34,765 nucleotides of DNA. Source: Roseivirga echinicomitans (GTDB lineage: Bacteria; Bacteroidota; Bacteroidia; Cytophagales; Cyclobacteriaceae). Each line of letters begins with the position of its first letter. Within the stretch, counting starts at the first letter, position 1. The notes beneath the pieces were generated by a model. The model worked only from the letters and a program-made list of their open reading frames with translations, did no database searches and was not told where the DNA came from. A program made the position numbers and the translations under genes. The DNA lies in contig NZ_LRDB01000006.1 of NCBI RefSeq assembly GCF_001592935.1, forward strand, positions 1 through 34,765. Reading direction: 5' to 3'. This document shows positions 9,061-30,718 of the stretch, piece after piece.

Positions 9061-9999
9061 CTACTTCTTTATGTCTGGAGAGGAATCGAAAACCATACCT
9101 ACTTTGATTGATAAATCTGTAAGGTAATCTGTCACCCTTAGAAGTCCCCCATGACATTTGATTAAAAATGATCCGTCTTGAAACACCTCCACAATTTCCC
9201 CTATTCGTTGCCCTGGAACATCAAGCCTTGTGTCAAAAGGGCTTACTCGATAAAGTGTGACTTTTTTATCATTGATAAAAGAAAAAGCGCCAGGATATGG
9301 TTTGGTTAAAGCTCTAACAAAATTATAAATATCCATTAAGGGCTTATTCCAATCAATTATACCGTCTTCGGGGGTCCTTTTCCCAAAATACGTAGGTATT
9401 CCAACTTGAGGTTGTACCGTGAAATCCCCTATCAATAGTTTAGGGACCCACTCCATGTACATCCTATGTGTAATCATTGACATTTTTAAATAAAGGCTCT
9501 GAACATCATCCCATTGATTGATATCAAACATTTGATAAAAGAATACATCCCCGTTATCAATGCCTGGCCTAATTAAAAAATAATGCACAATGAATCTTTC
9601 TGCACCGTTGATTAAACTCCAGTTGATTGGTGACCTTCCTCTACCCTTCGGTAAAAATTCCACACTTCCATGTCCACCAATTGCACCAATTGAAAGGGTA
9701 TCGAGAATTACACTTGGAAATAAACGCTGCCAGCCTCCCTGTATTAAGAGATCAAATTCATTCCGCTTAAAAAACTCGATATCCTCTGCTGAATTAAGAG
9801 TATACTTGCTCACGTAATATACTGGAATACCATAAGCCTTCGCAAGCGGTTCATAATCTATATAACCTGATATCTGCAACCTTTCTGCTTTTGATTTATC
9901 AACCAGAACGAAATAATCAATTTTAAGCCCACTAGCAAGCATTTTTCCAATGGCCTCATATCCAGCAACATGACAGCCACACATCACAATCTTTTTCAT
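9061..9999 (-). CDS. Formyltransferase (Fmt/GART-fold), variant active site
   Basis: The 312-residue protein has a formyltransferase catalytic domain (about 1-195) and a C-terminal OB-like domain resembling Formyl_trans_C (about 205-305, with GEIVEVFQDGSFLIKCHGG). The catalytic loop reads GGHGSVEFLPKGRG at 108-121 and the aspartate motif GIDNGD is at 146-151, so His110 and Asp148 are in place. The third catalytic residue, normally Asn two places before the His, is Gly108. Enzymes of this fold use N10-formyltetrahydrofolate to formylate an amine, such as Met-tRNA or an amino sugar on a nucleotide. The locus favours an amino sugar. It lies 26 bases after a polysaccharide-deacetylase-like gene and repeats the pairing seen at 10770-12409. 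It is unlikely to be the housekeeping fmt. Confidence 0.85.
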   Translation of the reverse strand: MKKIVMCGCHVAGYEAIGKMLASGLKIDYFVLVDKSKAERLQISGYIDYEPLAKAYGIPVYYVSKYTLNSAEDIEFFKRNEFDLLIQGGWQRLFPSVILDTLSIGAIGGHGSVEFLPKGRGRSPINWSLINGAERFIVHYFLIRPGIDNGDVFFYQMFDINQWDDVQSLYLKMSMITHRMYMEWVPKLLIGDFTVQPQVGIPTYFGKRTPEDGIIDWNKPLMDIYNFVRALTKPYPGAFSFINDKKVTLYRVSPFDTRLDVPGQRIGEIVEVFQDGSFLIKCHGGLLRVTDYLTDLSIKVGMVFDSSPDIKK

Positions 10000-10025
10000 C
10001 TTATTTCGTTTTGAAGAAAGTGAAT

Positions 10026-10763
10026 TTAAGAGACATCAAAGTTTCCAAACTTACTTAATGCTTCCCTATACTCGGATAGAACATTATTACTCCTGCCATG
10101 TACTACTCTCTTTATTCTATCAGAAGGCGACATCACTTCATCCTGCCACCAAGCCGGGTGAGTCAACACCTGTGCATTTTTGATTGAATCATCCATTAAA
10201 AAATCTTTCAACCTCCTATACTTCCAATAGCCATTGGAATCTGAGCAATAGTCATAATTCTTTTTGATGGACTCAGTATATACATTAAACAAACCTGCAT
10301 AAGCCTCCTTTTCGCAACTCATGGTAAATTCAGTTGTATTGTGAAAAGAGAAGGCTCTAATCTCAATATTAAAAATACTACGAAATAACTCCACCTCCTT
10401 TAAAAGATAGTCTTCCAAATCATCTTCCAAGGTTATTTCATAGTAATGGCTATCAAAATGAAGCCCAATATTGTGGCCTAATTCCTTTATCTTAAAAAGT
10501 ATCTCGGTAACTTCTTTTTCGAAAATATTATAAAACTCGGAATGGGGTAGAATAAAGTAATTTGCCCTCACACCCATTTCTGCTTCTATTTGTGCAAGCT
10601 TCAATGCGCTATGCATACTAAAGTCAATATCATGTCGCCACAATATTTTATTTGATGCATCTGATCCTAATTCATCGAATGTGATGAAAGTGTATTTTTT
10701 TAACGCCAAAGCAATTAGCGCTTTGTAATTTTCTCTTGTAAAATCTTCAAAGTAATAATTCAT
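10026..10763 (-). CDS. NodB/polysaccharide deacetylase-like protein A
   Basis: The 245-residue protein has features of carbohydrate esterase family 4-like hydrolases: WRHDIDFS at 42-49 gives the Asp-x-Asp motif, and LHFDSHYY at 101-108 gives the His-x3-His metal pair (His102, His106). A later LTHPAWW at 200-206 supplies the usual C-terminal histidine. It has no signal peptide, so it should act in the cytoplasm on a nucleotide- or lipid-linked sugar rather than on exported polymer. It sits between two formyltransferase genes (6 bases from the upstream one), which suggests removal of formyl or acetyl from an amino sugar, as ArnD does. That role is inference. Confidence 0.78.
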   Translation of the reverse strand: MNYYFEDFTRENYKALIALALKKYTFITFDELGSDASNKILWRHDIDFSMHSALKLAQIEAEMGVRANYFILPHSEFYNIFEKEVTEILFKIKELGHNIGLHFDSHYYEITLEDDLEDYLLKEVELFRSIFNIEIRAFSFHNTTEFTMSCEKEAYAGLFNVYTESIKKNYDYCSDSNGYWKYRRLKDFLMDDSIKNAQVLTHPAWWQDEVMSPSDRIKRVVHGRSNNVLSEYREALSKFGNFDVS

Positions 10764-10769
10764 CCTCTA

Positions 10770-11702
10770 CTAATAAAACCTAACCCTTAATGATTTGAAA
10801 AAAGTATCGGCCACTGACCTCGTACCTTTATACTCTATTTCAGACACCTTGATTTTCCCTTGTCCTGTCAGAAGTACGATTTCACCACTCTCCAAGTATT
10901 GTACTATTTGTCCTGGGATCCCACACCAATTTTCCTGATCATCAAATACTGCGGCTCTCCAAATCCTAAGAACGGCATCCTCTTTATCCAGGCAAAAAGC
11001 ACCTTCGAACGGTTCCGAACTTGCGTTTACAAGCCTGACAATTTCTTCAGCAGAAGCATGCCAATCAATCTTACCATCTTCTGGTCTTCTAGGATAACAC
11101 CTTAAAGCCATCAAAGAATTTTTGCTTTGGGCCTCTAAAACAAACTGAGGTTCTACTTTCAGTTTCTCAGCCACCTTGAGAAACATCCTTGGTATGTCTT
11201 TTTCAAACCACTGATATACCTCCCCAACTCGAGTATCAATATCTATAGGGTAAAGCTTCTTTAATAGAATATCTCCTGAGTCAAGCTCATCTCCAATCAT
11301 TCTGTGAATACACAATCCAATTTCCTTTTCTCCATTGATGATGGCCCATGCTTGACAAGCGTTACCTCGATAACGAGGTAGATCTCCACCATGGGCATTG
11401 AGGATCCCTAATGGAAATAAATCCGTAACCTCTTTCGATATAACACCACTGTAATTAATACTAATGGCAATGGCTACATCATTCGAAGTTGATAGCTTCA
11501 ATATTTTGTCTTTTGAAATTGCGGGATCATGCAGAAATGGACAATTTAGTTCATCTGCAAAAGCTTTAAAATCATCCGACCCTACTTCGTATTCTGGAGC
11601 CTCTTTGGAGGTAATAATATAAGCTATCTCAAATCCTTTACTTTGCAGTAACTTACCTGTATCAAGCAATACTTTTGTTCTCCCAATCAGAGCTACCTTC
11701 AT
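10770..11702 (-). CDS. Formyltransferase (Fmt/GART-fold), canonical active site
   Basis: The 310-residue protein has the catalytic loop NAHGGDLPRYRG at 102-113 and ELDSGD at 139-144, so Asn102, His104 and Asp141 form the canonical triad. The C-terminal region (about 200-305, ending near GQGKIKVSEIEYKG) matches the OB-like tail of Fmt and sugar formyltransferases. The start ATG overlaps the stop of the upstream deacetylase-like gene by four bases, indicating coupled translation. It likely uses N10-formyltetrahydrofolate to formylate an amino group on an NDP-sugar; the amine could come from the aminotransferase at 18571-19713. Met-tRNA formyltransferase is the alternative, but context argues against it. 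Confidence 0.88.
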   Translation of the reverse strand: MKVALIGRTKVLLDTGKLLQSKGFEIAYIITSKEAPEYEVGSDDFKAFADELNCPFLHDPAISKDKILKLSTSNDVAIAISINYSGVISKEVTDLFPLGILNAHGGDLPRYRGNACQAWAIINGEKEIGLCIHRMIGDELDSGDILLKKLYPIDIDTRVGEVYQWFEKDIPRMFLKVAEKLKVEPQFVLEAQSKNSLMALRCYPRRPEDGKIDWHASAEEIVRLVNASSEPFEGAFCLDKEDAVLRIWRAAVFDDQENWCGIPGQIVQYLESGEIVLLTGQGKIKVSEIEYKGTRSVADTFFKSLRVRFY

Positions 11703-12409
11703 TTTTTTCCTCCAAATTGTAAACTAACATCGTATAGTTTCGAGGACATTAAGCCATTCAGTGAAACATGCTCTAACAAGGCAATCAAAATATCTCTGGT
11801 CCCTAAAACTTCTCCTATATTCTGAACAGTTCTTAACAATCCCATATTCTGTTGATCATGTTTTATTTTTGTAAAACGATCATTATTCTCTGAATTTAAA
11901 TAGATATGAATGGGATGGAAATTAAAAATATTTAATCGCTTGTCCATTAAGTCTATCTTGCTATCATCAAATGGATAATCTAATGCAAAATGATAATCAT
12001 CCTCCCAGTTAAATGGAATTCTACACAAGCCATTCCATAAAATAAATGGCTTAATCCCTTGATGGTATGGTAAAAAGTGGTTTACCTCATAAGTGATTCC
12101 AAATTTTCTGTACATCTCCAGAATATACCCGCTTTGAGTAAGGCTATGAGACCTAGCACCTTTTGCCTCTGGGTACATCTCCTTTAAATTAGACATTACA
12201 TCTTCAACATTCCCTCCTTTTCCCTGTAGAATCTGATTGAAATTTGGGTGCAAACCAATTTCAAATAAATCACGATCACAATTGTCCAATACCTCTGACT
12301 TATGTGTCGTGAAAATAGTACAAGGCACATCGTATTTCTTAAATAAATCAAGGGTATCTTGAATCACCTCTTCAGGAGCCCAGTCTACATCAATAGTAAA
12401 ACAATTCAC
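11699..12409 (-). CDS. NodB/polysaccharide deacetylase-like protein B (WbmS-like)
   Basis: The 236-residue protein starts CFTIDVDWAPEE, placing an Asp-x-Asp motif (Asp7, Asp9) at the first strand of a deacetylase-type barrel. EIGLHPNFNQ (50-59) gives the first metal His54, but the second position of the His-x3-His motif is Asn58. GARSHSL (84-90) resembles the catalytic Arg motif and FHPIHIYLN (164-172) the C-terminal His motif. It resembles cytoplasmic deacetylase-like proteins of O-antigen loci such as Bordetella WbmS; this is from memory and not searched. It overlaps the formyltransferase gene by four bases, so the two products are probably needed in similar amounts. There is no signal peptide. 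Confidence 0.77.
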   Translation of the reverse strand: MNCFTIDVDWAPEEVIQDTLDLFKKYDVPCTIFTTHKSEVLDNCDRDLFEIGLHPNFNQILQGKGGNVEDVMSNLKEMYPEAKGARSHSLTQSGYILEMYRKFGITYEVNHFLPYHQGIKPFILWNGLCRIPFNWEDDYHFALDYPFDDSKIDLMDKRLNIFNFHPIHIYLNSENNDRFTKIKHDQQNMGLLRTVQNIGEVLGTRDILIALLEHVSLNGLMSSKLYDVSLQFGGKK

Positions 12410-12419
12410 ATTTCTTTTT

Positions 12420-13574
12420 TTAAATAATAAAATCGTCTAGACAATAAATAACCATTTTGTCTTTCCCTATTTTATCTATGATCTTATTTTTAATTTTTTG
12501 CCCGAAAGCGGCACTCATGATCACCATATGTGTTACAGGCTCATCTACTACATCTTGAAAGTTTTCTACTTTTATTTCAAAGCCATCGAAGTACTGATTA
12601 TAAATTCCAGCGTTATCATCAAAAAACCTGATGTTATTGTTACTTCCGATGTCGGCAATTGCCAGGTAAGGCATGGCTCTTAATGGAATATAACAGCCTA
12701 AAGTATTGTTTTCTTGAAGCCCTAAATTAATTAAGTCAACTACCTTATTTTTTAGTGTATGTAAGTTTTTATCAAATTTTTCAAATTTGCTAGTACCTTT
12801 TTTCGCAGTCCAATCCTTAGTTTCTGAAACTTTAGCAACGCAGTATAACACCCCACCAAAATCAGCCGGCCGAATACTCAACACTTCGAACCCAGCTGAT
12901 TCCACTACATTACGAAGCGATTCTTGGTCGAAGTAATTTAGATGTTCATGCAAGATCATAGACATGTCTCCAGAGTCGATATATCTTGTGCAATCTGGAA
13001 CTGCAAAAGCGATCAAACCTCCTGTATTTAAATCCTTCGCATGTTCTTTAATGAAAGCTGAGGGTTCTAAAACATGTTCTAAAACATCATAATGAATAAT
13101 CATATCCGTTTTCGGCATTTCATTGCTTGTTGGATAGAAGTCTTCTATTACCTCAATGCCTAGCTCTGCTCCAGCTTGAATCGCTATAGGACTGGGATCG
13201 ATTGCAGCCACATCAAAACCCTTTTCTTTGAGTTTCCCTAGGATATAACATCCTCCTGCGCCAACCTCTGAGATTCTTTTAGTTGATGGATTTAATTTGT
13301 CAATTGATTGTTCAATAAATTCAAGAAAATCACCACCGTAACTTATTGCTAGGTCGTGCCCTTCCTGTAAGTATCCTACGTTATAATCCTCTTTGTAAAT
13401 AGTTTCAAGATAACCCCATGTTTGATCGTTTCTTTTTTGAATGATTAATTGATAGTCTTCATTAAATTCGAAACTAAAATCAACAAAATCGGGAACGGGA
13501 TTAACGGGTGAATTTGGTTTATCTGTCATTCTCCAATAGAATGGAAGTTTCCCTAATTTAATCTCTCTTTTCAT
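12420..13574 (-). CDS. Two-domain methyltransferase (sugar C-methyltransferase-like)
   Basis: In this 384-residue protein the core starts near residue 80. Motif I is ISEVGAGGCYILGKL (101-115), Asp126 follows in AAIDPSPIAI, and DVLEHV is at 163-168. HEHLNYF at 209-215 is typical of sugar C-methyltransferases, whose central part carries an 'EH-x-x-YF' motif. The C-terminal third (about 255-384), with GCYIPLRAMPY and RFFDDNAGIYNQYF, resembles the Rossmann-like C-domain of those enzymes. The usual N-terminal zinc-binding cysteines are not visible. It probably methylates a keto- or amino-sugar intermediate. It lies 10 bases upstream of the deacetylase-like gene and 2 bases after the flavoprotein gene, within the tailoring operon. 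Confidence 0.82.
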   Translation of the reverse strand: MKREIKLGKLPFYWRMTDKPNSPVNPVPDFVDFSFEFNEDYQLIIQKRNDQTWGYLETIYKEDYNVGYLQEGHDLAISYGGDFLEFIEQSIDKLNPSTKRISEVGAGGCYILGKLKEKGFDVAAIDPSPIAIQAGAELGIEVIEDFYPTSNEMPKTDMIIHYDVLEHVLEPSAFIKEHAKDLNTGGLIAFAVPDCTRYIDSGDMSMILHEHLNYFDQESLRNVVESAGFEVLSIRPADFGGVLYCVAKVSETKDWTAKKGTSKFEKFDKNLHTLKNKVVDLINLGLQENNTLGCYIPLRAMPYLAIADIGSNNNIRFFDDNAGIYNQYFDGFEIKVENFQDVVDEPVTHMVIMSAAFGQKIKNKIIDKIGKDKMVIYCLDDFII

Positions 13575-13576
13575 CC

Positions 13577-14989
13577 TTAATTACTTTTTTGATAAACATC
13601 AACGAGAACATCTGTTTGAAAAAATAGGTTATCCTTAGCTAGGATACCAATCATTTCAATATTGCCGATATTCATGTCTGTTATCTGTTTCCGAATATTT
13701 CTTATTGCACTTATGTTGTTTTTTGATGGCATAGGAAAACCACTTTCCAAAGGTTCTGCCTTTGCGAAAACTATTTCGGTTCCTCCTTGTAAAACATCAA
13801 ATCTCTTTAGCTCATCTATTGCGATTTCTTCAAAAGACAATTTCGATTCCTCGATTTGTTGATCACTCATTAAAAGCTCAATACTGATTGGATACAAACC
13901 ATTCCTTTTTGCTCCAGAACAATAGGCATTAAAATCATTCAATCGATAAGTATGGAAACCATCTTCATAGCAAAAGAAATAGAATAGGCCAGCCATATCC
14001 AATGGCTTATCTAGCAATAGGCTAACCACCACGGTTTTCAATGGTTTATCATACTTCAATCCAGTAAAATCAACCCCTAACATCCTTCCTAAAAGTGGAA
14101 TACCTCCTGTCCAAACAAAATCCTGAATTTTGTCAATTTCAATAAGTTCCCCACCTGTAAATAGAGAAATAGAATCAACCTTGTTACTTTTTAAGTTAAC
14201 TTTCCTTAGCTCAGATGATAGTTTAAACTCAACATTTAAATCTTTCAATTTTGCTACTAGGGCCTCTATAACACGATACATCCCATAATTCCGTGGGTAA
14301 TATGCTTTTCTTCCAGAAGATAAATTAAGGGGGAGTTCCCTTTGATGACTATAAGCCAACTTAGACCTTAGAACATCCGACTTAATCAAATCGTCCAACA
14401 ATGGAGCATCATATAAAGCCACTCTTGTCATTGGTGTGAAAATAGTAGCCATGTAATCCAGTTCACCGGCAGGTTTTTGATGAATTTTCTCTACGGAAGG
14501 AATAATTGTTTTTGAGGCAATATAATTTCCAAACCGATGGTTGGCATACTCCTCTGCAGAGAGATCCGTTTTAGGTTTACTTTTAGAATCCTCTTCTTTT
14601 AGGTTAGAGAAAAACTCGAACATGCACTTTTCATATTCTTGTTTTTCAAGGTTTCTTAAATCAAAATAAGGAGTGTTTTTTTGCAAGGTATTTGAATAAT
14701 AAATACCCGCTAAATCGCGATTCTCTCCTTCCAATATTTGCCAATCTTCCTTTTCGAGTAGAGAAAAAATAAAATCATCTAACTCCTGAATCCCGGTTTC
14801 CATGATATTATGCATTCCGTAGTCAAAAACACCATAATCATCACCATAATCCAGCTTTCTTAGCAAGCCTCCAACTTCTGAATTTTTTTCAATAATAATT
14901 ACATCAGTATCTCTTTTAGAGGCCAAATAATAAGCCCTTAATAATCCTGAAATACCTGACCCAATAATGATCGATTTACTCTTCCCCAT
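13577..14989 (-). CDS. FAD-dependent oxidoreductase (UGM/protoporphyrinogen oxidase-like)
   Basis: The 470-residue protein starts with a dinucleotide-binding motif, IIIGSGISGLL (7-17), with the strand-ending Glu34 in IIIEKNSEVGGLLR, the FAD-binding pattern of amine oxidase/UDP-galactopyranose mutase relatives. FDYGMH (55-60) matches the position of the 'FDxGxH' segment in those families. It carries no signal peptide, so it is cytoplasmic. It may isomerise a nucleotide sugar (pyranose to furanose) or oxidise a sugar or amine; sequence alone does not decide. Its start overlaps the end of the FemAB-like gene by 14 bases, and the methyltransferase follows 2 bases later, so it is a firm member of the operon. 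Confidence 0.82.
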   Translation of the reverse strand: MGKSKSIIIGSGISGLLRAYYLASKRDTDVIIIEKNSEVGGLLRKLDYGDDYGVFDYGMHNIMETGIQELDDFIFSLLEKEDWQILEGENRDLAGIYYSNTLQKNTPYFDLRNLEKQEYEKCMFEFFSNLKEEDSKSKPKTDLSAEEYANHRFGNYIASKTIIPSVEKIHQKPAGELDYMATIFTPMTRVALYDAPLLDDLIKSDVLRSKLAYSHQRELPLNLSSGRKAYYPRNYGMYRVIEALVAKLKDLNVEFKLSSELRKVNLKSNKVDSISLFTGGELIEIDKIQDFVWTGGIPLLGRMLGVDFTGLKYDKPLKTVVVSLLLDKPLDMAGLFYFFCYEDGFHTYRLNDFNAYCSGAKRNGLYPISIELLMSDQQIEESKLSFEEIAIDELKRFDVLQGGTEIVFAKAEPLESGFPMPSKNNISAIRNIRKQITDMNIGNIEMIGILAKDNLFFQTDVLVDVYQKSN

Positions 14990-16028
14990 CCTTGTTAATA
15001 TTTAATTGATTAAAGGGTAAGACAAAAAAGTCTGTATACTCACTTAATAATTCCTCTGGGGTGCTCTGGAAGATATCCTTATTATTAATTTGGGTGTGGT
15101 AATAATATTTTTCATCAAAAGTCCCCCAACGTTTTTTAAACCGGTACACTCCTTCTTGAGTTTCCCAAGTCCCTCCCCAATTCCATAATTTATAGCCTTG
15201 CTCAGAAGCATCTTTCATTGCCTGAAGTATAAGTAAACTCATTGGCTGTTTATCCCTATGGTCCGACTTTATTACAGGGGTGTAGTATTCAACCGTATTT
15301 TTATGATAAAATAGCAACAAGCATGAGATAGGCTCTCCATCAAAAGAGGCAGTATAGATTTTATAGTCCTTATTAGCTTCATAAATACTAGGAAATATCT
15401 TAAAAAATTGCTCGTTTTTTGGCTTCCCTCCAATTGCTTCCATATTTTCTAAATGAACCTGATATAAAAAGTCCAGTTTAGAATTATCAACACTTATAAC
15501 TAAGCCCGACTTCATTGACTTTCGAACCATGTTCCGAGTTTTATAATGAAATAAATTCATTAGATTCTCTTCGAAATTACTTTCAAAACCAATGTCCGTA
15601 AACTGGCCAATTCTGAAATCAGTCAGGTTGCTTTTTATTCTAGAAAAATCTTGATCGGATAAAAGTGGGATAGAAATCACTGTAGATGCAGCTATCGTTT
15701 CTTTCCCTATAACTTTTTCGTTATAATAGTTTATTAAATACTGGAATACTTCATCATTTTTTGTTAATAGCCCACCATTACTCCCATAAAAAGGTAAGGA
15801 ATTTACAACCTCTCCATACTTTCCATTCTTAATCATCATAGGTAAAACGCCCACGATTTCATCCTGAATAATCGCTATTATATAAAGAGCCTCAACACCT
15901 AATAATTTTATAAGTAGGTTCCTATACTTTAATGAATGATAGAGCATTGAAGCATCATGATCGTAAACAAACTTTTCATATTTGTCTTCCCATTCATGAT
16001 TTAATATGATGCAGTTGATATCATTCAT
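14976..16028 (-). CDS. FemAB-related GNAT-fold acyl/aminoacyltransferase
   Basis: The 350-residue protein has the double-GNAT look of FemAB/BioF2-like acetyltransferases. The central region has a basic patch, TRNMVRKSMKSGL, and the C-terminal GNAT half has YTPVIKSDHRDKQP, LWNWGGTW (281-288) and FKKRWG (297-302), a signature of this group. The family attaches acyl groups or amino acids to amines on cell-wall or exopolysaccharide precursors. Here it could N-acylate the amino sugar made in this cassette. The donor (acyl-CoA or aminoacyl-tRNA) cannot be read. It overlaps the upstream methyltransferase gene by 8 bases and the downstream flavoprotein gene by 14. Confidence 0.8.
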   Translation of the reverse strand: MNDINCIILNHEWEDKYEKFVYDHDASMLYHSLKYRNLLIKLLGVEALYIIAIIQDEIVGVLPMMIKNGKYGEVVNSLPFYGSNGGLLTKNDEVFQYLINYYNEKVIGKETIAASTVISIPLLSDQDFSRIKSNLTDFRIGQFTDIGFESNFEENLMNLFHYKTRNMVRKSMKSGLVISVDNSKLDFLYQVHLENMEAIGGKPKNEQFFKIFPSIYEANKDYKIYTASFDGEPISCLLLFYHKNTVEYYTPVIKSDHRDKQPMSLLILQAMKDASEQGYKLWNWGGTWETQEGVYRFKKRWGTFDEKYYYHTQINNKDIFQSTPEELLSEYTDFFVLPFNQLNINKDGEE

Positions 16029-16662
16029 TTTTATAAATATTATCTGGTCTTTTTATTGTTTGGTCTTTAAATATGGTAATTGTAAACTCATAAGGCATAT
16101 ATGAGCAATCAAGGACGTATCTTTTTGATAATTTCTCTGATACGAATCTCAATAGCTCATTTATATTTTGATGATATGCACCCTCTTGAATAAAGTCAAC
16201 TTGGTCGGACATGAAATTCACGGACAAATAGACATTTGCTTTACTAAACAAACCTTCCAGTATTTCAAACACCAAATTTTTATGCTTTTCCAGGTCTTCA
16301 AAATAAGATATATTAAATACCCCAGAAATTAATACATAGTCAAAGCTCTTCTGTATTTCGGAATAATCTTGGATTAACTGAAAATCAGTATTTGGAAAGG
16401 TTATTTTATTTTGAACTATAAAACTGTCAACTACATCTACTCCATGATAGCTAAAATTCCCATCATGAGTCGCATTTAAGTAATCAAACATATGCCCCAA
16501 TCCACATCCAAAATCTAGAATTGAGAATTTCTTTTTTACAATTGACCTGGTTAAAGCATCAAATCTCTCTTTTTGTCTCCCTTTAGGCCAAAAGACTGAT
16601 TTTTCTGAATTACCGTATTTATCAAATGCCTCTTGGTATTGCTTTATTACGTTATCAATCAT
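16021..16662 (-). CDS. Class I SAM-dependent methyltransferase (small)
   Basis: This compact 213-residue methyltransferase has motif I ILDFGCGLGHM at 48-58, a ribose-binding acidic residue in YHGVDVVD and a motif IV-like stretch FDYVLISGVF. Length and simplicity fit an O- or N-methyltransferase acting on a small sugar or acyl substituent. It lies 6 bases after the asnB copy 2 stop and overlaps the FemAB-like start by 8 bases. Its substrate is unknown. Confidence 0.8.
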   Translation of the reverse strand: MIDNVIKQYQEAFDKYGNSEKSVFWPKGRQKERFDALTRSIVKKKFSILDFGCGLGHMFDYLNATHDGNFSYHGVDVVDSFIVQNKITFPNTDFQLIQDYSEIQKSFDYVLISGVFNISYFEDLEKHKNLVFEILEGLFSKANVYLSVNFMSDQVDFIQEGAYHQNINELLRFVSEKLSKRYVLDCSYMPYEFTITIFKDQTIKRPDNIYKNE

Positions 16663-16668
16663 GAATAA

Positions 16669-18567
16669 TTAATTCAAGCCTTCGGTCTCACCATTTAAGA
16701 AAATTCTGCACCACCATTCAAAATTCATAAATGACCAAATTAAAAGTCTATGGTTAATGTGTTGTTCATTATGCTCTTTGACTATCCTTTCTATATATTC
16801 TGGATTTATAAACTCATAAGAAACTGTTTTTTTCTTATCAAGTAGCAGCTCTTTTACATAGCCCATATTCTCACCCCTGTACCAACTTTCATCTGGTGCT
16901 GAGAACCCTTGCTTTTTACGGTCAAGAATCTTTTTAGGAATATAATCTTTCATTGCCTCTCTCAAAATCATCTTCCCATCATCAAAATTTCGATAACGTA
17001 ACTTCATATGAGCATTCTCATCTATCTTTTTAATCTCATTCGTTAGGTTACCAAGTTTGTATTTTACGGGAATTTTCTGAGCAAAATTTACCAAGTCATT
17101 GTCCATGAATGGAAACCTTTCTTCTAAACCACTTGCCATGGCCAGTTTATCCCCCACTAAAAACAAGCCTGGTAAAAATGTCTTCGCTTCGAAATACAGG
17201 GAATTTTGAATATGGGCTTCCGGACTATCGTACCTTAATGAATTATTAAAGGTGAATACCCTTTCAAAAACTGTCCGTGGCTCAGACATGTCCATTTGAG
17301 AAATCTTATCCTCTTGAAACAACGTGGTTTTTTCTCCATCAGGAACTAGTCGCTGCCAAAAGGAATAATATTGCTCAAAAAAATTCTCTTGACTAATAGA
17401 ATCAAAAATACGATAGTACCGCCAAGGGTAACCACCGAAAAGCTCATCTCCTCCAGTGCCCTGTAAGCATACCTTGACGAACTTTGATGCTAATCTTGAT
17501 ATGTAATAGTTTGGGTAAGACATACCTACCCTTAAATCTTCTAAATGGTATACTAATTTGGGTAAAGACCAACGCAAATCACCTGCATTCATTACTTGTT
17601 CGAAGTGCTCTGTCTTAAAGTGATTGGCCATCAACTCGGCATCTCTTCTTTCATCATAATTGGCCTCTACTCCTGTCACCTCACTCATGTCAAAACCACA
17701 AGTAAATGTTGACATTCTAGGGACGTATTTCGAAGCTATTGATGTTATTGTGCCCGAATCCATTCCTCCAGAAAGATAGCTCCCTACTGGAACGTCCGAA
17801 ACCATTTGCCTGGCCACAGCCTGTTCCATCAACCGCTCTGTTTCTAGCTTAGCCTCCTCAAAACTTATACCATTATCTGGCTTGGTAAAATCATAATCCC
17901 ACCAAGAGCGATGTTTTACACCTGTGGAGCTTCGCTCCATGGTAACAGTATTTGCCGGAGGAAGCATTGTTACGCCTTTGAATAAAGTTCGGAAAGTAAA
18001 TAAATTTTGGAACGTAAAATATTCATTCAAAGCACCTAAATCCACCTCCGTTTTATAATCAGGATGTTGTAATATGGCCTTAATCTCTGAGGCAAAAACC
18101 AATGTTTCTCCATTGAACCAATAGTACAGCGGCTTAATTCCAAAACGATCTCTAGATAGATACAGCTTCTTTTCTTGCTTATCCCAACAAGCAATGGCAA
18201 ACATGCCATTCAACTCCTCAACAAAGGAGATACCAAAGGCTGAAATGCCCTCAACAATCACTTCGGTATCTGAATTGGAATGAAAACTATGCCCTGCCGC
18301 CCTTAACTTTTGTCTTAACTCTAAATAATTATAGATACACCCATTAAAAACGAGTATGTACCTACCATCTCGAGATGGCATAGGTTGCGCTCCCTTCTCT
18401 GATGTATCTAAAATAGCGAGTCGTTTGTGTACAAGGCCGACATTCTCATCTATAAATATACCCTCTCCATCTGGACCTCGGTGGGCAATACTCTCACCCA
18501 TCTTCTTGAGCAGTTGGGTGGTAATGGGTTTATCATTGAGGTTAAAAACACCGGCTAATCCACACAT
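16669..18567 (-). CDS. Asparagine synthase-like glutamine amidotransferase (AsnB family), copy 2
   Basis: The 632-residue protein starts MCGLAGVF with the catalytic Cys2. It shows HRGPDGEG (29-36), the glutaminase strand FNGCIYNY (74-81), SDTEV (99-103), RDRFGIKPLYY (139-149) and the synthetase ATP loop SGGMDSG (266-272). Both domains are complete, but the family's NGE triplet reads Asn-Gly-Cys (75-77), replacing a glutamate thought to help bind glutamine. The sequence is clearly distinct from copy 1, so the two are not a recent duplication. It lies 3 bases after the aminotransferase gene. I favour amidation of a uronic acid or an acyl substituent over asparagine synthesis, by inference from context. 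Confidence 0.92.
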   Translation of the reverse strand: MCGLAGVFNLNDKPITTQLLKKMGESIAHRGPDGEGIFIDENVGLVHKRLAILDTSEKGAQPMPSRDGRYILVFNGCIYNYLELRQKLRAAGHSFHSNSDTEVIVEGISAFGISFVEELNGMFAIACWDKQEKKLYLSRDRFGIKPLYYWFNGETLVFASEIKAILQHPDYKTEVDLGALNEYFTFQNLFTFRTLFKGVTMLPPANTVTMERSSTGVKHRSWWDYDFTKPDNGISFEEAKLETERLMEQAVARQMVSDVPVGSYLSGGMDSGTITSIASKYVPRMSTFTCGFDMSEVTGVEANYDERRDAELMANHFKTEHFEQVMNAGDLRWSLPKLVYHLEDLRVGMSYPNYYISRLASKFVKVCLQGTGGDELFGGYPWRYYRIFDSISQENFFEQYYSFWQRLVPDGEKTTLFQEDKISQMDMSEPRTVFERVFTFNNSLRYDSPEAHIQNSLYFEAKTFLPGLFLVGDKLAMASGLEERFPFMDNDLVNFAQKIPVKYKLGNLTNEIKKIDENAHMKLRYRNFDDGKMILREAMKDYIPKKILDRKKQGFSAPDESWYRGENMGYVKELLLDKKKTVSYEFINPEYIERIVKEHNEQHINHRLLIWSFMNFEWWCRIFLNGETEGLN

Positions 18568-18570
18568 GCT

Positions 18571-19713
18571 TTAAAGAGATTTTAGAGTTTCGACAACATA
18601 TTCAAAATCCTCTAGCGTCATTCTGTTATGCAAAGGTATGGCCATCGAAAAATTATTTGAAGCTTGGGCTCCAGGAAAATCAGTAGGCTGAAGTCCATAT
18701 TTTTTGGAATAAAAGCCCAACATATGAACGGCATGCGTTCCTGGTCGAGTTGAAATGCCCATATCTAGTAGTTTCTGCATGATCTCATTTCTAGACATCG
18801 GTGATTTGCTTTCATCAACTATGGTAACATAACTCTGCCAACCGTGTTTGAAGTCTTGAGAATACACAGGAAGACTCAACCATTCAATTTCGGATAGCTC
18901 ATCTACATAATACTGCGCCCATTTTGCTCTTTCATCAATAAACTGATCTAGTTTACCAAGTTGTACACAGCCTAAAGCTCCTTGAAGGTCGGTCATTCTA
19001 TAATTATAGCCACAGACGTCAAAGTCAGGCAATATATAAGGTTGCGCACCATGATGCCTTTGTTCTTCAGAAACAGAAGCGCCATGATTTCTTAAGATTG
19101 AAAGTTTTTCAGCAAGCCTATCATCATTGGTGGTGATCATTCCACCTTCACCAGTCGTTACTGATTTTCTTGGGTGAAATGAAAAACAACCCATAATACC
19201 TAAGCCTCCAGCTGGCTGACCTTTATATGCAGCTCCTGCCGCACAAGCGCCATCTTCAATAATCGGGATACCCGGTGCAGCTAGCTTAATTGCATCCATA
19301 TCAACACAGAGACCAAAAAGATGCACCGCCATTATGGCCTTCGTCTTAGATGTGATCTTTGTTGATAATTGCGCTGGATCAAGGTTAAAAGTCTTAGTAT
19401 CAACATCACAAAAAACAACTTCAGCACCTTGGTGAAGCACAACGTTAGCCGTTGAAACCCAAGTAAATGCTGGAACAATCACTTCATCTCCAGGCCCTAT
19501 ATCCAAAGCGACCAACGCTAGATGTAGCGCAGTAGTGGCACTAGTTACTGCTATGGCATGTTTGACCTTATGCCTCTCAGCAAACATTACTTCAAATTCC
19601 CTAACTTTAGGGCCAGAGGTTAACCAACCTGACATAATTGGTACCTTAACAGCTTCCCATTCTTCAAGTCCAGTGCTAGGCAAAGAAATGGGGATATTTC
19701 TCTTTTCACTCAT
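18571..19713 (-). CDS. DegT/DnrJ/EryC1/StrS sugar aminotransferase
   Basis: I start this gene at the ATG at 19711-19713 (380 residues, MSEKRNIPISLPS). A longer frame reaching 19806 would run back into the ABC ATPase gene, and its extra 31 residues do not resemble the family. TSATTAL binds the PLP phosphate, EDGACAAGA stacks on the ring, and FSFHPRKSVTTGEGG holds the Schiff-base lysine (Lys183 from this start). The enzyme puts an amino group onto a keto-sugar nucleotide using glutamate or glutamine. It resembles the ArnB/perosamine synthase side of the family more than WbpE does. No 4,6-dehydratase is evident in the window, so its keto substrate may come from elsewhere or from one of the SDRs. 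Its amine is a plausible target of the two formyltransferases. Confidence 0.9.
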   Translation of the reverse strand: MSEKRNIPISLPSTGLEEWEAVKVPIMSGWLTSGPKVREFEVMFAERHKVKHAIAVTSATTALHLALVALDIGPGDEVIVPAFTWVSTANVVLHQGAEVVFCDVDTKTFNLDPAQLSTKITSKTKAIMAVHLFGLCVDMDAIKLAAPGIPIIEDGACAAGAAYKGQPAGGLGIMGCFSFHPRKSVTTGEGGMITTNDDRLAEKLSILRNHGASVSEEQRHHGAQPYILPDFDVCGYNYRMTDLQGALGCVQLGKLDQFIDERAKWAQYYVDELSEIEWLSLPVYSQDFKHGWQSYVTIVDESKSPMSRNEIMQKLLDMGISTRPGTHAVHMLGFYSKKYGLQPTDFPGAQASNNFSMAIPLHNRMTLEDFEYVVETLKSL

Positions 19714-19723
19714 ATCAGAGTTA

Positions 19724-21010
19724 TTAAATTCGTTTTGTTTTCCAACTCGTTCGCGGTTTAAAATACCCATGTACTGTGGCCCAAGGATAGTCGAGGTCAT
19801 GATCAATTGAATCGCGAAGAATTCTTATTGTTCCAACAGACTCTACAGAATCAATATCAGATCCTGTATTGTACTTAGAAATAGTAAGGTTAAATGAATA
19901 CTCACCGGGCATCAATACTTCTTCGAGCGACACCTCAAACTCATATTTACCTTTTTCAAGAGAAATAGATTTATAATTTTCATTAGGTGCAGCCATTGTT
20001 ATGGTGTCTCCTAAAACATTTATAATATGAAGTCCAATTGATGCATCAGAAACATCCGTAAAAACCTCAATTTCAATTAATAAGGTAGGTTTTTCACCAA
20101 AAAAGAAATCCTCACAGCCTTGTTCATCTTTATATGGCAGGAAGCGTGTAAATCTTACTTCACCTGAGCCATGCAAGCTTATACCCTTAGGTATATAACC
20201 ATCGCCAGTTTTGGCCAGTGAATAGGCAGATAAATAAGTACTGATAGTATCTCCTGTTTCACCAAAACTATGCACTTTTCCCTTTTCCAAGAAAATAGTC
20301 TTTTTACAAAGGGCCTTAATAGTAGGCATATGATGGCTGACAAAAATAATCGTTCGTCCACCAGTATGTCCTAATTGGTTCATTTTACCAATACACTTTT
20401 TCTGGAAATCGGCATCACCTACTGCCAATACCTCATCTACGATAAGTATATCAGACTCCAAATGTGCAGCTACTGCAAAAGCCAGGCGTACGAACATTCC
20501 AGATGAATATCGTTTCACAGGTGTATCTATGTATCGCTCTACCCCTGAGAAATCTACGATTTCATCAAATTTCTTTTTAATCTCTTGATGGCGCATCCCA
20601 AGTATGGCACCATTGAGAAACACGTTTTCTCGGCCTGTTAACTCAGGGTGGAAGCCTGTGCCCACTTCCAATAAGCTGGCTACTTTTCCTTTTATTTTAA
20701 TATGTCCAGTGGTAGGATGAGTAACTTGAGAAAGAATTTTCAAGAGTGTACTCTTACCAGCACCATTACGCCCAATGATACCAACAGAATCACCTTGCTC
20801 AACTTGAGCTGAAATGTCTCTCAAACTCCAAACAACATTGCTACTTCCCTTCTTAGTTCGATCGTTTTCCTCTCCTATTTTCAGAAATGGATCTTCTTTT
20901 CCTCTCTTTAAAGCCCACCACCTGGATATATCATTAGAGAAAGACCCCGTATTAAAAACACCTAGTTGATAGGCTTTGGAAACATTTTCTATACTAATAG
21001 CTACACTCAT
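19724..21010 (-). CDS. wzt: Polysaccharide ABC exporter ATPase (Wzt-type) with C-terminal glycan-binding domain
   Basis: I take the start at 21008-21010 (428 residues, MSVAISIENVSKAY), 4 bases after the permease stop. The upstream extension overlaps that gene and reads as non-native. The ATPase shows Walker A GRNGAGKST (80-88), the signature YSSGM (168-172) and Walker B ILIVDEVLAVGD (from 187). The wide gap before Walker A is typical of Wzt/TagH exporters. Beyond about residue 285 lies a beta-rich domain starting near GSGEVRFTRFLP and containing GLHIINVLGD, matching the Wzt C-terminal domain that recognises the finished O-polysaccharide's end group. This implies an ABC-transporter export pathway whose substrate carries a specific terminal modification. 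Confidence 0.92.
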   Translation of the reverse strand: MSVAISIENVSKAYQLGVFNTGSFSNDISRWWALKRGKEDPFLKIGEENDRTKKGSSNVVWSLRDISAQVEQGDSVGIIGRNGAGKSTLLKILSQVTHPTTGHIKIKGKVASLLEVGTGFHPELTGRENVFLNGAILGMRHQEIKKKFDEIVDFSGVERYIDTPVKRYSSGMFVRLAFAVAAHLESDILIVDEVLAVGDADFQKKCIGKMNQLGHTGGRTIIFVSHHMPTIKALCKKTIFLEKGKVHSFGETGDTISTYLSAYSLAKTGDGYIPKGISLHGSGEVRFTRFLPYKDEQGCEDFFFGEKPTLLIEIEVFTDVSDASIGLHIINVLGDTITMAAPNENYKSISLEKGKYEFEVSLEEVLMPGEYSFNLTISKYNTGSDIDSVESVGTIRILRDSIDHDLDYPWATVHGYFKPRTSWKTKRI

Positions 21011-21014
21011 AAGG

Positions 21015-21860
21015 CTAAATTGTGTCAACAAATGTTTTCTCGTATTTATTAAAAGCGTAAACACCAACAAATAACATAATGACGGTTGCAATTATCATAT
21101 ACAGAATATTCATTGTTGAAAACGAGCCCGTCCCAAAAAATGCATGGCGAAATAATTCAATGGGAAAGGTCATTGGATTGAAAGAAACCATCAACTTGAA
21201 TTTACCTGAAATACTGGATAATGGAAAAACGACTGGTGCCAAGAATAATCCTAATTGTAAAATGTAACCCAATAACATAGAAAAATCTCTATACTTTGTA
21301 GCTATGGCTGCAACCAACAAACCTAAACCAACTGCCTGAAAAGAAACTATTATAATAAGGAACGGTACCAATAAAATAGCAGGAGTAAGACTAATTGTAT
21401 CTGATGTAAACAAGTAATATACAAAGATCAATATGAGCAATAATAATTGCACCCCTAATCTCAGCATACTCGAAAACACAATACTCAGAGGCATTATTAA
21501 ACGAGGAAAATATACTTTGCCAAACATCGCTGCATTCTCCAAAAGTACACCACTGCACTTTGTTACGGTCTCAGTGAAATAAGACCAGATCATTAATCCC
21601 GAAAGATAAAATAATACTGGAGGTACTCCATCGGTAGACAAGCCTGCCACCTTACCAAAAATAAAGAAATACACGATGGTCGCTACTATTGGTCTTATGA
21701 AAAACCAAATAGGGCCGAGAATTGTCTGTTTATAAAAGGCTACAAAATCCCTTCTTACCAATAACTTTAGGAGATCCCTATACTGCCAGATTTTCTTGAA
21801 ACTAGCACGCCCACGCTTATCATCGGCATCAATAACTAGATCCCACGTTTGTTCATTCAT
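21015..21860 (-). CDS. wzm: Polysaccharide ABC exporter permease (Wzm-type, ABC-2)
   Basis: The 281-residue membrane protein has about six hydrophobic segments: FFIRPIVATIVYFFIFG, a stretch around LFYLSGLMIWSYF, LLLLILIFVYYLF, ILLVPFLIIIVSF, LGYILQLGLFLAPVVF and ILYMIIATVIMLFVGVY. The amphipathic lead-in RDLLKLLVRRDF and the YKQTILGPIWF segment are typical of Wzm/TagG/KpsM permeases. It pairs with the ATPase gene 4 bases downstream and moves a lipid-linked polysaccharide across the inner membrane. The start follows the GalE-like SDR stop by 11 bases. Confidence 0.93.
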   Translation of the reverse strand: MNEQTWDLVIDADDKRGRASFKKIWQYRDLLKLLVRRDFVAFYKQTILGPIWFFIRPIVATIVYFFIFGKVAGLSTDGVPPVLFYLSGLMIWSYFTETVTKCSGVLLENAAMFGKVYFPRLIMPLSIVFSSMLRLGVQLLLLILIFVYYLFTSDTISLTPAILLVPFLIIIVSFQAVGLGLLVAAIATKYRDFSMLLGYILQLGLFLAPVVFPLSSISGKFKLMVSFNPMTFPIELFRHAFFGTGSFSTMNILYMIIATVIMLFVGVYAFNKYEKTFVDTI

Positions 21861-21871
21861 ACTAAAAATTC

Positions 21872-22855
21872 TTACTTTTTTTGATCAACACCAGTATCTA
21901 TTCTCCAATCAATAAGTTTCTTAAGGCCATCTCTTAATTCATATTTGTAGCGAAAGCCCAATTCTTCTTCTGCCTTTACGCGAGACCCGATTCTATTTTG
22001 AACTAAAGACCTTGCATCGTCAGCAGAATAGGGTTTGTATATCACCTTCAGTTCAGATTTTTTAAGATCGAGAATGGTGTCGCATAATTCTTTAATGGAT
22101 GTCTGAACCTCGGTGCCGACATTATACATTCCGAATTTAGTATCGCTTTTTAATGCATTTACGTTACATCTAGCAACGTCTTCAACATAAATAAAATCGT
22201 AAGCCTGACTTCCATCACCATTAATGACTGGTGATTCATTGGCCTCTATTTTGTTTAGCATAATTGGCACTACGCCTGTATATGCAGCTGTCTGATCCTG
22301 ATGCGGACCATAAACATTCATGTATCTTAGACCAATTACTTCTAGTCCATACCTATCATTGAACGCAGTACACATCGCTTCGCCAGCAATTTTCGAGGCT
22401 CCATAAAAATTTTTGTTATTAAAAGGGTGATCTTCAGTCATGGGTAATTCTACTGCATCACCATAAACTGAAGCAGAAGAAGACCATATTAATTTCTTAA
22501 TATTATTCTTAACACAAGCCTCTAGAATGTTAAAAGTACCCTCAATATTTACGTGAAAAGCAGTTCTTGGGAAATCCTTACAATGTAATAACCACATGGC
22601 TGCAAGGCTGATTACATAATCTTTACCTGCCATGGCTTCATTAAGGATATCAACCTCCCTTATATCACCCCCGATAGGAAAAATAGAGCACCTTGAATCC
22701 TTTAACTGCTCATCTAAATAACTTCTTTGTCCTCTAGCAAAATTGTCATAAACAAGAACCTCTGCTATATCTTCTTTAAGCAGTTCTGCTACTACAAAAC
22801 TGCCAATAAATCCTGCTCCACCAATAACCAGAATTTTTGAGCCTTTTAATTCCAT
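21872..22855 (-). CDS. NAD-dependent nucleotide-sugar epimerase/dehydratase (GalE-like SDR)
   Basis: The 327-residue protein has Rossmann motif GGAGFIG at 12-18, SSSASVYG at 125-132 and the catalytic YGASK at 151-155, an extended SDR of the UDP-sugar epimerase type. MNVYGPHQDQTAAYTG and the C-terminal INGDGSQAYDFIYVEDVAR stretch are the usual substrate-domain landmarks. It probably interconverts NDP-sugar C4 epimers, or acts as a dehydratase, for a polymer residue. The product cannot be named. It lies between the Wzz-like gene (65-base gap) and the ABC permease. Confidence 0.9.
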   Translation of the reverse strand: MELKGSKILVIGGAGFIGSFVVAELLKEDIAEVLVYDNFARGQRSYLDEQLKDSRCSIFPIGGDIREVDILNEAMAGKDYVISLAAMWLLHCKDFPRTAFHVNIEGTFNILEACVKNNIKKLIWSSSASVYGDAVELPMTEDHPFNNKNFYGASKIAGEAMCTAFNDRYGLEVIGLRYMNVYGPHQDQTAAYTGVVPIMLNKIEANESPVINGDGSQAYDFIYVEDVARCNVNALKSDTKFGMYNVGTEVQTSIKELCDTILDLKKSELKVIYKPYSADDARSLVQNRIGSRVKAEEELGFRYKYELRDGLKKLIDWRIDTGVDQKK

Positions 22856-22920: not shown

Positions 22921-24096
22921 TCACTCCTTGTCAAGAGTTATTTCGTTTAATTTTTTTCTTAAAATTCCGAAAATCACCAAGCCCGTATAAGCCATAGCCC
23001 AAAGTATCCCAAAAACAATTCCAAAAATTACATACCGTATAACGGATGAGCTGTTAAAACTGCCAATCGGAGTTAAGGGCACATAAGCAGGTTCAAATAC
23101 ATTATAAAATGGAGTGTTCTCCAAAAGGTCAATCTTCATCATTTCAACTTTTGAAGCCAAGTCCGAATAAATACCAGAATATAAACTATAATTGGTTGAA
23201 AGGTTTTCCAAAGTGGTATTGGCCATTGATGTTCTACCACCATTATTCTGATCTTGAAATTTAGCCAGTGCCAATTGGCTTTCTATAAAATTAGTCTTTG
23301 CTGTATCTAATTGTTTTTTAGCCAACATAAGATCTCTCTGCTGTTTTCCCGTTCTAATTTCAATTGTCTGTTCAACTAGTTTTTCCAAAACAAGATTATT
23401 GAGCCTAGTGCTAAGTTTAGCCGTGGGCATTTCGGTTTCTATGGTAACCGGATTTACCCCTTCTATTTTCACTCTGCCCTTCAATTCCACCATTAAACCT
23501 ATCTGTTCCATTGTAAGAGTTCTCAACGTATCTGTCGGTATTTTAACAGAACTCGAGTCCATATTGGATGTTGTGTTTTCTTCTCTTACAAAAAGGTCAA
23601 AAAAACGATTGGGTAGATTCTTAATTTTAGACACTGCTGTTCCTATAACGCTAGTCTTAGGTTGAATACGTTGTAAATAATCTGATATTGGAAGGTAACC
23701 ACCGTGTCCCTCTGATAAAATTGGCTCATCCAACAAATTCAATAAAAATGGTCTACTCTCCATGATACCTGCGAATGATTCTATTCCTAATGAACTCGTA
23801 GTAGATGCCACTGGAGGCGCCATAAAAGCATCTAAGCTCAATGCCGCTTTAGGGGAGGGAGGAGCACCGCCTCCAGGGATAATGACAGATTTAGAAACGT
23901 AAAACTCCGAATAGTTATTGGCCTGTATAATTCCAATTATTAAAAAAACAAACCCAAAAACTACAACCCCTTTCCAGAAGGATAGCAGATACTTTATAAT
24001 ACCTAAAACTGAGATTTCCTCCGTTTCAATGGTCTTATGAATAAACTGATACTTTATACTCTGTTTATTCAGTCGAAACACATTCCTTAACTTCAT
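22921..24096 (-). CDS. Wzz-like polysaccharide co-polymerase/chain-length protein
   Basis: The 391-residue inner-membrane protein has a hydrophobic segment at about 42-59 (WKGVVVFGFVFLIIGII) and another at about 354-379 (YVIFGIVFGILWAMAYTGLVIF). Between them lies a periplasmic domain with a predicted helical stretch (QQRDLMLAKKQLDTAKTNF). The Pro-rich PLTPIGSF just before the second membrane segment is the Wzz landmark. There is no C-terminal tyrosine kinase domain. It pairs with the OPX gene 1 base upstream, as KpsE pairs with KpsD in ABC-dependent capsule systems, and would set chain length or couple the exporter to the outer-membrane channel. Confidence 0.85.
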   Translation of the reverse strand: MKLRNVFRLNKQSIKYQFIHKTIETEEISVLGIIKYLLSFWKGVVVFGFVFLIIGIIQANNYSEFYVSKSVIIPGGGAPPSPKAALSLDAFMAPPVASTTSSLGIESFAGIMESRPFLLNLLDEPILSEGHGGYLPISDYLQRIQPKTSVIGTAVSKIKNLPNRFFDLFVREENTTSNMDSSSVKIPTDTLRTLTMEQIGLMVELKGRVKIEGVNPVTIETEMPTAKLSTRLNNLVLEKLVEQTIEIRTGKQQRDLMLAKKQLDTAKTNFIESQLALAKFQDQNNGGRTSMANTTLENLSTNYSLYSGIYSDLASKVEMMKIDLLENTPFYNVFEPAYVPLTPIGSFNSSSVIRYVIFGIVFGILWAMAYTGLVIFGILRKKLNEITLDKE

Positions 24097-29173: not shown

Positions 29174-29176
29174 ATT

Positions 29177-30717: not shown

Positions 30718-30718
30718 A

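Follow-up and report, generated by a model that had tools for sequence, protein, structure and literature searches.

A WbmS-family protein, a second NodB-fold protein and two formyltransferases as a possible N-acyl exchange module in Roseivirga echinicomitans

Described systems and the four-gene set

The Bordetella wbm O-antigen locus encodes WbmS (BB0128), whose crystal structure, 3HFT, has been public since 2009 and is listed as uncharacterized in passages of a 2024 survey (PMC10967932). Passages of PMC2279256 describe 2,3-diacetamido-uronic acid chemistry for wbm, those of PMC12243275 a novel wbm locus whose annotation lists genes for formyltransferase, aminotransferase, methyltransferase and asparagine synthase, and a passage of PMC3849452 predicts modification of the terminal sugar by the middle genes of the WbmS locus. 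Here we analyse four adjacent genes of Roseivirga echinicomitans that encode a WbmS homologue (D1), a second protein with predicted NodB fold (D2) and two formyltransferases (FT1 and FT2). With moderate confidence, we interpret them as a module for N-acyl exchange that belongs to an O-antigen-type cluster: N-acetyl would be taken off and N-formyl or another acyl group put on amino-uronamides, possibly as a chain-end cap. The genes are located in a stretch of 34,765 nucleotides (assembly GCF_001592935.1, contig NZ_LRDB01000006.1, positions 1 to 34,765), below referred to as the window.

At the protein level, likeness to wbm was established for D1 and WbmS, and no function of WbmS is given in the sources consulted on this locus. 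The Bordetella chain end was reportedly described by Vinogradov in 2000 as a 2,3,4-triamino-galacturonamide bearing formyl as well as N-formyl-N-methylalanyl groups.

Another related system is the modification of lipid A with 4-amino-4-deoxy-L-arabinose (L-Ara4N), in particular its ArnB-ArnA-ArnD branch (passages of PMC12748117). An ArnB-like aminotransferase, ArnA-like formyltransferase domains and a D1 fold nearest ArnD outside its own family have counterparts there. In contrast, FT1 and FT2 differ from ArnA: they consist of formyltransferase domains only and are not fused to UDP-glucuronic acid oxidative decarboxylase, as had been noticed in a preceding sequence-only reading of the window. 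Moreover, D1 often occurs without formyltransferase, and neither D1 nor D2 matched an ArnD-named NCBIfam model, provided that the library has one.

N-formyl uronic acid and carboxamide chemistry are found together in the O6 O-antigen of Pseudomonas aeruginosa, where 2-formamido-2-deoxygalacturonic acid (GalNFmA), a 2-N-formyl uronic acid, stands beside the carboxamide of 2-acetamido-2-deoxygalacturonic acid (GalNAcA; passages of PMC10609480 and PMC4773840). This likeness is one of glycan chemistry, and no account of the origin of the 2-N-formyl group was found in open-access literature. In lipid A synthesis, the amine of a UDP-sugar is deacetylated by LpxC and then re-acylated by LpxD. The module proposed here would follow the same deacetylate-then-re-acylate logic, but with unrelated protein families and with formyl-folate presumably in place of acyl-ACP (acyl carrier protein). 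WbmS and sugar formyltransferases are already known; in open-access literature, outside which most subscription papers lie, we found neither a described route replacing N-acetyl of a glycan precursor by N-formyl nor a description of D1/formyltransferase coupling.

All four genes lie on the minus strand, where they read D1 (11699-12409, 236 amino acids), FT1 (10770-11702, 310 amino acids), D2 (10026-10763, 245 amino acids) and FT2 (9061-9999, 312 amino acids), inside a run of minus-strand open reading frames (ORFs) between 33061 and 681. Four bases are shared by D1 and FT1, whereas gaps of 6 and 26 bases separate FT1 from D2 and D2 from FT2, respectively. The sequence-only reading had described four adjacent genes, alternately formyltransferase and deacetylase-like, with the 4-base overlap and the 6-base gap; their coordinates, strand and order are confirmed.

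Two NodB-fold families and two formyltransferase classes

D1 passes the Pfam model PF22537 (WbmS-like) with 200.2 bits at a cut-off of 27, residues 5-183 covering positions 2-186 of the 186-position profile, and matches 3HFT in phmmer search (1.4e-37). Its structural model (pLDDT 94.6) was compared with known structures by Foldseek. The best match is again 3HFT (E 8.7e-23, TM 0.84/0.82, rmsd 1.7); beyond the WbmS family, ArnD of Salmonella (8t0j) ranks first (E 1.1e-7, 12% identity), followed by 3RXZ and 3QBU. As judged from the model, D1 has a NodB fold.

Eight D1 residues (D7, D9, H54, R86, H88, D137, H165 and H168) are present in all 26 selected sequences and, in the same order, in 74, 73, 74, 75, 74, 72, 70 and 72 of 76 aligned rows. 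The CE4 motif MT2 (HxxxH) is defined by two metal-binding histidines (passages of PMC10967932). D1 lacks the second of them: H54 is followed by N58, and position 58 is asparagine in 19 and histidine in one of the 26 sequences. The idea that D1 is degenerate is nevertheless not supported, since its own set of residues is kept across the WbmS family. We regard D1 as a putative N-deacetylase that would act on an amino sugar in the cytoplasm.

D2 belongs to no Pfam family at the cut-offs used and has no NCBIfam match; a match to DUF3290 fell under cut-off and was taken as chance. Its model (pLDDT 93.0) is most similar to CE4/NodB chitin and peptidoglycan deacetylases, with 2vyo at the top (E 3.2e-5, TM 0.50/0.58) and 2iw0 and PdaC among further matches, while 3HFT is absent among the 50 structures listed. 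The likeness is distant, and the model suggests a NodB fold at that distance. R43, D45, G100, H102, H141, D175 and H202 are common to 22 of 22 selected sequences, with aspartate or glutamate at position 47. In the 27 aligned rows D45, G100, H102, H141 and D175 occur in all, R43 and H202 in 26 and D47 in 25. The HxxxH motif is complete in D2 of the window (H102, H106), but no more than 5 of the 22 sequences, the window included, have H106. D2 may be described as a putative second N-deacylase. In a metagenome-assembled genome of Desulfobacula, a 759-amino-acid ORF (L049:5863-8139) combines a D2-like domain with one of the radical SAM type.

D1 and D2 show no significant BLASTP match. Comparison of their profiles, with 26 D1 sequences, gave a probability of 74% (E 2.8e-5, 97 columns) and aligned the DxD motifs, the GIHPN and GLHFD motifs and RSH with FSFH; with only 4 D1 sequences the signal was weak (probability 13.7%). 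D-x-D, H, H, D and H are common to the two families, and H88 of D1 and H141 of D2 may be candidates for the third metal ligand. They are different NodB-fold families.

FT1 and FT2 both exceed Pfam cut-offs for Formyl_trans_N and Formyl_trans_C, and ArnA is the best PDB sequence match of each. The earlier claim that formyltransferases and NodB-fold enzymes meet in a polysaccharide locus is borne out, by Pfam for FT1 and FT2 and by PF22537 and the models for D1 and D2. FT1 has the Asn-His-Asp triad (N102, H104, D141); FT2, with G108, H110 and D148, has not. However, Gly, His and Asp are invariant in 12 aligned sequences of the FT2 class (chosen as such), and Gly-His-Asp marks a whole class of formyltransferases, so that absence of asparagine is a class trait. 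The notion of a degenerate FT2 was rejected as stated, since this class is conserved and its His and Asp do not vary among the 12 sequences. The sequence-only reading had seen canonical residues divided between the pairs, in the formyltransferase of one and the deacetylase of the other. Literally this holds (FT1 has N-H-D and FT2 G-H-D; D2 has HxxxH and D1 has not), but it does not hold as loss of function, and the divided roles derived from it are unsupported, given the class-wide glycine, the rarely kept H106 and the conserved residue set of D1.

A formyltransferase tree of 53 rows was built by a quick method without bootstrap. FT1 falls into a clade of 26 sequences from D1-anchored loci in ten NCBI phyla (Shimodaira-Hasegawa-like approximate likelihood ratio, SH-aLRT, 98; 27 sequences at 94). 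FT2 belongs to a clade of four (SH-aLRT 96) with Cytophagales, Microscilla and alphaproteobacterial sequences that are 51-55% identical to it, and each of the four directly follows D2. Since the loci were fetched through D1, the tree is silent on D1-free occurrence. With FT1 and FT2 only 23% identical and placed in separate clades, and D1 and D2 without significant match, the pairs cannot be called duplicated, as they had been, and tandem duplication of one formyltransferase-deacetylase pair was rejected.

Gene neighbourhoods of D1 and D2

A one-genome-per-species collection was scanned with a D1 alignment, which yielded 68 loci (fetched stretches are labelled with L-numbers, e.g. L039). To see which gene follows D1, we took 74 D1 genes from the window, L025 and L028-L095 (L024 was dropped), 73 of which have a next gene, and labelled these genes with local profiles. 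On the same strand, 23 are formyltransferases, 12 hexapeptide acyltransferases and 4 match a methyltransferase profile; 22 are unlabelled, 10 carry other labels, and 2 lie on the opposite strand. The background consisted of 871 genes from the same loci, direct D1 neighbours on both sides excluded. Formyltransferases are clearly enriched after D1 (23/73 versus 21/871, Fisher 4.7e-16), and so are hexapeptide acyltransferases (12/73 versus 37/871, Fisher 1.7e-4), where Fisher values are uncorrected for relatedness and Ignavibacteria are over-represented among the loci. Twenty of the 22 unlabelled genes (all but those of L075 and L086) were scanned against Pfam and included two GNAT acyltransferases and three methyltransferases. 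In total, the gene after D1 encodes a formyltransferase or other acyltransferase in 37 of 73 cases (23 formyltransferases, 12 hexapeptide, 2 GNAT). Formyltransferases and hexapeptide acyltransferases in this slot look as if D1 made an amine available to another acyl group.

Position relative to D1 is also reflected in the catalytic motif. All formyltransferases right after D1, FT1 and 22 of 22 relatives, possess N-H-D, which makes 23 enzymes across nine phyla. Those right before D1 possess Gly-His-Asp in 10 of 10 scorable separate enzymes (the L090 fragment is unscorable, the L076 fusion described below has asparagine, and L024 repeats L057). After D2, glycine is found in the window, L039, L046 and L054, and asparagine in L071 and L093.

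Both a formyltransferase and D2 are present in 20 of the 68 D1 loci, only a formyltransferase in 18, only D2 in 4 and neither in 26 (Fisher 0.0009). Here the fused ORF of L076 was counted for both; separate gene maps label it D2 only (37 versus 38 formyltransferase loci) and miss the D2 of L070. No formyltransferase match was detected in 30 of the 68 loci within the stretch examined, nor, in a relaxed search, in 13 of those 36 that extend 8 kb or more in each direction. Obligate ArnD-like deformylation is disfavoured by the former count.

D1, D2 and at least two formyltransferases occur together in nine of the 68 loci (L029, L033, L039, L046, L054, L068, L070, L091 and L093), which span Ignavibacteriota, Bacteroidota, Pseudomonadota, Bacillota and Gemmatimonadota. 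The order D1-FT-D2-FT of the window recurs in L039 and L093, a Cytophagales and a Polaromonas contig, respectively; the last formyltransferase of the Polaromonas set is a short relative consisting of the N-domain only. L029 and L033 display the order FT-D1-FT-D2. Fifteen ORFs of the Microscilla locus (L054) resemble proteins of the window at more than 80 bits. Identities amount to 82% for the epimerase (EPI), 69% for both DegT and the amidotransferase, 55% for the methyltransferase, 52% for FT2, 51% for both FemAB and FT1, 42% for the FAD protein, 38% for D1 and 29% for D2.

Of 26 D2 relatives, ten lie next to a formyltransferase and another is fused to one. The fusion comes from Bradyrhizobium altum (L076), where one ORF joins Formyl_trans_N (35.4 bits, cut-off 26.1) to D2 and the next ORF is a fusion of WbmS and a methyltransferase; the fused formyltransferase is not closely similar to FT1 or FT2. 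We also inspected 32 D2-anchored stretches from outside the window, 2.3-3.8 kb each and including some duplicates. In L102, one of these, a Gly-type enzyme with 33% identity to FT2 follows D2. The earlier expectation that the pairs travel together is well supported for D1 and formyltransferase, and for D2 and formyltransferase only in part.

In the phylum of the window, D2 relatives were detected in 23 of 345 genomes, and WbmS is rare: 4 of 296 genomes exceed the cut-off, that of the window included. In the family of the Polaromonas genome, 1 of 299 sampled genomes does so, Polaromonas itself, and no Bordetella locus was recovered from this sample. A search for FT1-type enzymes not anchored on D1 is a thin test: it found 1 of 296 genomes of the phylum (the own genome) and 8 of 348 in the family of the Dorea genome, one of which is Dorea itself (L067) while seven fit the G-class profile better and were not counted. 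None was confirmed in viral contigs.

Further families were observed next to D1. One of about 370 amino acids directly follows it in four loci (L047:3950-5077, L053:1905-3041, L055:4378-5547 and L095:10745-11842), and its relative L040:4859-5905 is located just before a formyltransferase. Matches were found neither in Pfam (all four) nor in NCBIfam (two tried) nor in PDB (one tried); it is a candidate for an alternative acyl- or ligase-type partner of D1. In Helicobacteraceae, D1 is followed by one family (L065:2303-3403, L069:8746-9870, L080:8809-9933 and L086:8912-10024), three members of which were scanned: one is over the sulfotransferase cut-off, one under it, and one has no match. On the Lawsonia intracellularis plasmid NC_008013.1 (39.8 kb; L132), a WbmS-family gene annotated as hypothetical lies between a methyltransferase gene and asnB, with a DegT aminotransferase nearby.

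The surrounding cluster and proposed N-acyl exchange

All genes described below are on the minus strand. Directly upstream of D1 there is a methyltransferase gene (12420-13574, Methyltransf_23 9.7e-17), a relative of which (31% identity) likewise precedes D1 in L039. Next come an FAD/NAD-binding amine-oxidase-like flavoprotein (13577-14989, NAD_binding_8 9.7e-12), whose counterparts adjoin D1 also in L048 and L054, and a FemAB-like N-acyl/aminoacyl transferase (14976-16028, Pfam Acetyltransf_6 and FemAB) that reached 114.9 bits with the XrtA FemAB model, under its cut-off of 260.35. A small methyltransferase (16021-16662, Methyltransf_12) and an asparagine-synthase-like amidotransferase (16669-18567, TIGR01536, 441.5 bits, cut-off 267.1) follow, the latter probably forming uronamide. 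Profile matches to the last three types were found in 10 (FemAB-like), 14 (small methyltransferase) and 37 (asparagine-synthase-like) of the 68 D1 loci. The sugar aminotransferase at 18571-19806 is of the ArnB/PseC/perosamine type (DegT; best PDB match ArnB, 3.3e-75), and C4 is its presumed site.

Wzt with a Wzt_C domain (19724-21091, ABC_tran and Wzt_C) and Wzm (21015-21860, ABC2_membrane) constitute an ABC transporter (19724-21860). Behind it lies a short-chain dehydrogenase/reductase (SDR) of epimerase/dehydratase type (21872-22855), with 6dnt as first PDB match and WbpP and WbgU thereafter. Five genes at 28031-33061 encode DegT, a GFO/IDH oxidoreductase, a hexapeptide acyltransferase, SDR and a TviB-like UDP-GlcNAc (UDP-N-acetylglucosamine) dehydrogenase, the last with 569.9 bits just under the TviB cut-off of 592. 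Such five-gene sets are known for UDP-2,3-diamino-2,3-dideoxy uronic acids, and we read this one as serving UDP-2,3-diamino-uronic acid synthesis. Genes upstream also include one for an SLBB export protein, and the export genes are headed by a NusG-family protein (26823-27344), perhaps a locus-specific antiterminator. A 391-amino-acid protein between exporter and SDR (22921-24096) has no Pfam or NCBIfam match at the thresholds used; its relative (29% identity) is found at the end of L017. Downstream of FT2 the cluster continues with glycosyltransferases, a methyltransferase, one more SDR and a further asparagine-synthase-like gene, the second of its kind. The cluster as a whole is read as one for ABC-exported O-antigen-type glycan with N-acyl-rich uronamides.

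In the proposed exchange, the cluster would make a UDP-GlcNAc-derived 2,3-diamino-uronic acid by means of the five genes, the ArnB-like DegT enzyme would aminate C4, and the asparagine-synthase-like enzyme would amidate C6. D1 (and D2) would take off N-acetyl in the cytoplasm, on nucleotide sugar or unexported chain, and FT1 (and FT2) would formylate the amines that result from this step or have been newly introduced. If the precursor is derived from UDP-GlcNAc, it carries 2-N-acetyl, and a 2-N-formyl group would need prior deacetylation. Another amine may receive a (methylated) aminoacyl group from the FemAB-like and methyltransferase enzymes. Wzt_C domains recognize chain-end caps in other ABC-exported O-antigens, and the Wzt_C domain of this transporter may likewise read the finished group. 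The idea of a chain-end cap comes from this domain together with passages on Bordetella wbm (PMC3849452) and with the chain-end structure reported for Bordetella. Gene content, conserved residues, co-occurrence and one gene fusion were observed, along with predicted folds; from these we infer activity, substrate, position and order. Exchange is favoured over other readings since D1 is followed by a formyltransferase or acyltransferase in about half of the cases and exists also without formyltransferases.

Several points weigh against this interpretation. No activity was found in the literature for any WbmS protein; the nearest fold of the D1 model outside its own family is that of a deformylase, ArnD; and 2vyo, the top structural match of D2, is called probably inactive in passages of PMC10967932. 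Because D1 lacks the second CE4 metal histidine, and the D2 family mostly likewise, metal catalysis is uncertain. The 22 next genes unlabelled by local profiles belong here too. D2 has a formyltransferase beside it in only one of the 32 D2-anchored stretches (L102), and a Paracoccus plasmid encodes an FT1-type enzyme without D1 within 8 kb. The FT1 clade was gathered from D1-anchored loci, by which the link to D1 is barely tested from the formyltransferase side, and formyltransferases could act simply on aminotransferase products, without D1 or D2.

Two alternatives seem unlikely, to a similar degree. One is the ArnA/ArnD-like formylation-deformylation suggested by the sequence-only reading, in which FT1 and FT2 formylate an amine as transient protection, pulling the aminotransferase reaction forward and allowing transfer, and D1 and D2 later deformylate it to leave free amine. 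Real resemblances speak for it: formyltransferase domains closest to ArnA, a nearby aminotransferase closest to ArnB and a D1 model closest to ArnD after 3HFT, to which the G-H-D formyltransferases directly before D1 in ten loci can be added. However, many D1 loci have no formyltransferase match in the stretch examined (30/68, and 13/36 of those with 8 kb on each side), and hexapeptide acyltransferases take the post-D1 slot in 12 of 73. Furthermore, no GT2 (ArnC-like) or ArnT-type Pfam family is present among the 30 ORFs of at least 100 amino acids in the window, the part of the genome that was searched.

The other holds that the activities are uncoupled: the formyltransferases would directly formylate the C3/C4 amines that the aminotransferases produce, D1 and D2 would deacetylate C2 or another site for free amine or FemAB-like alanylation, and proximity would reflect one shared complex sugar. 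That the cluster encodes two aminotransferases as well as two formyltransferases is consistent with it, and so are the occurrence of D1 without formyltransferase and of FT1-type enzymes without D1, and the FemAB, FAD and methyltransferase genes found near D1 in L048, in L054 and in the window. An N-H-D formyltransferase directly after D1 in nine phyla and the fusion of formyltransferase to D2 nevertheless suggest coupling. That D1 and/or D2 are catalytically dead sugar-binding or scaffold proteins is very improbable: the missing or unkept second MT2 histidine and known inactive CE4 relatives among the matches (2VYO, BA3943) would fit, but pseudoenzymes usually lose such residues as the eight polar ones kept in D1 (70-75 of 76 each) and the six in D2 (R43, D45, H102, H141, D175 and H202, 26 or 27 of 27).

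N-acyl exchange might further be two-armed and mobile, a version that we put forward tentatively and consider rather doubtful. WbmS-type and D2-type proteins would each be coupled to their own formyltransferase class, N-H-D and G-H-D, respectively, and between them replace N-acetyl by N-formyl at two sites of a single amino-uronamide, building the chain-end cap read by Wzt_C. If true, this would assign a function to the orphan WbmS family and provide a route to 2-formamido uronamides, and the G-H-D class would represent a type of formyltransferase working without the catalytic asparagine. The conserved neighbourhood names the partner enzymes and the likely substrate, by which both the function of WbmS and the exchange route become testable.

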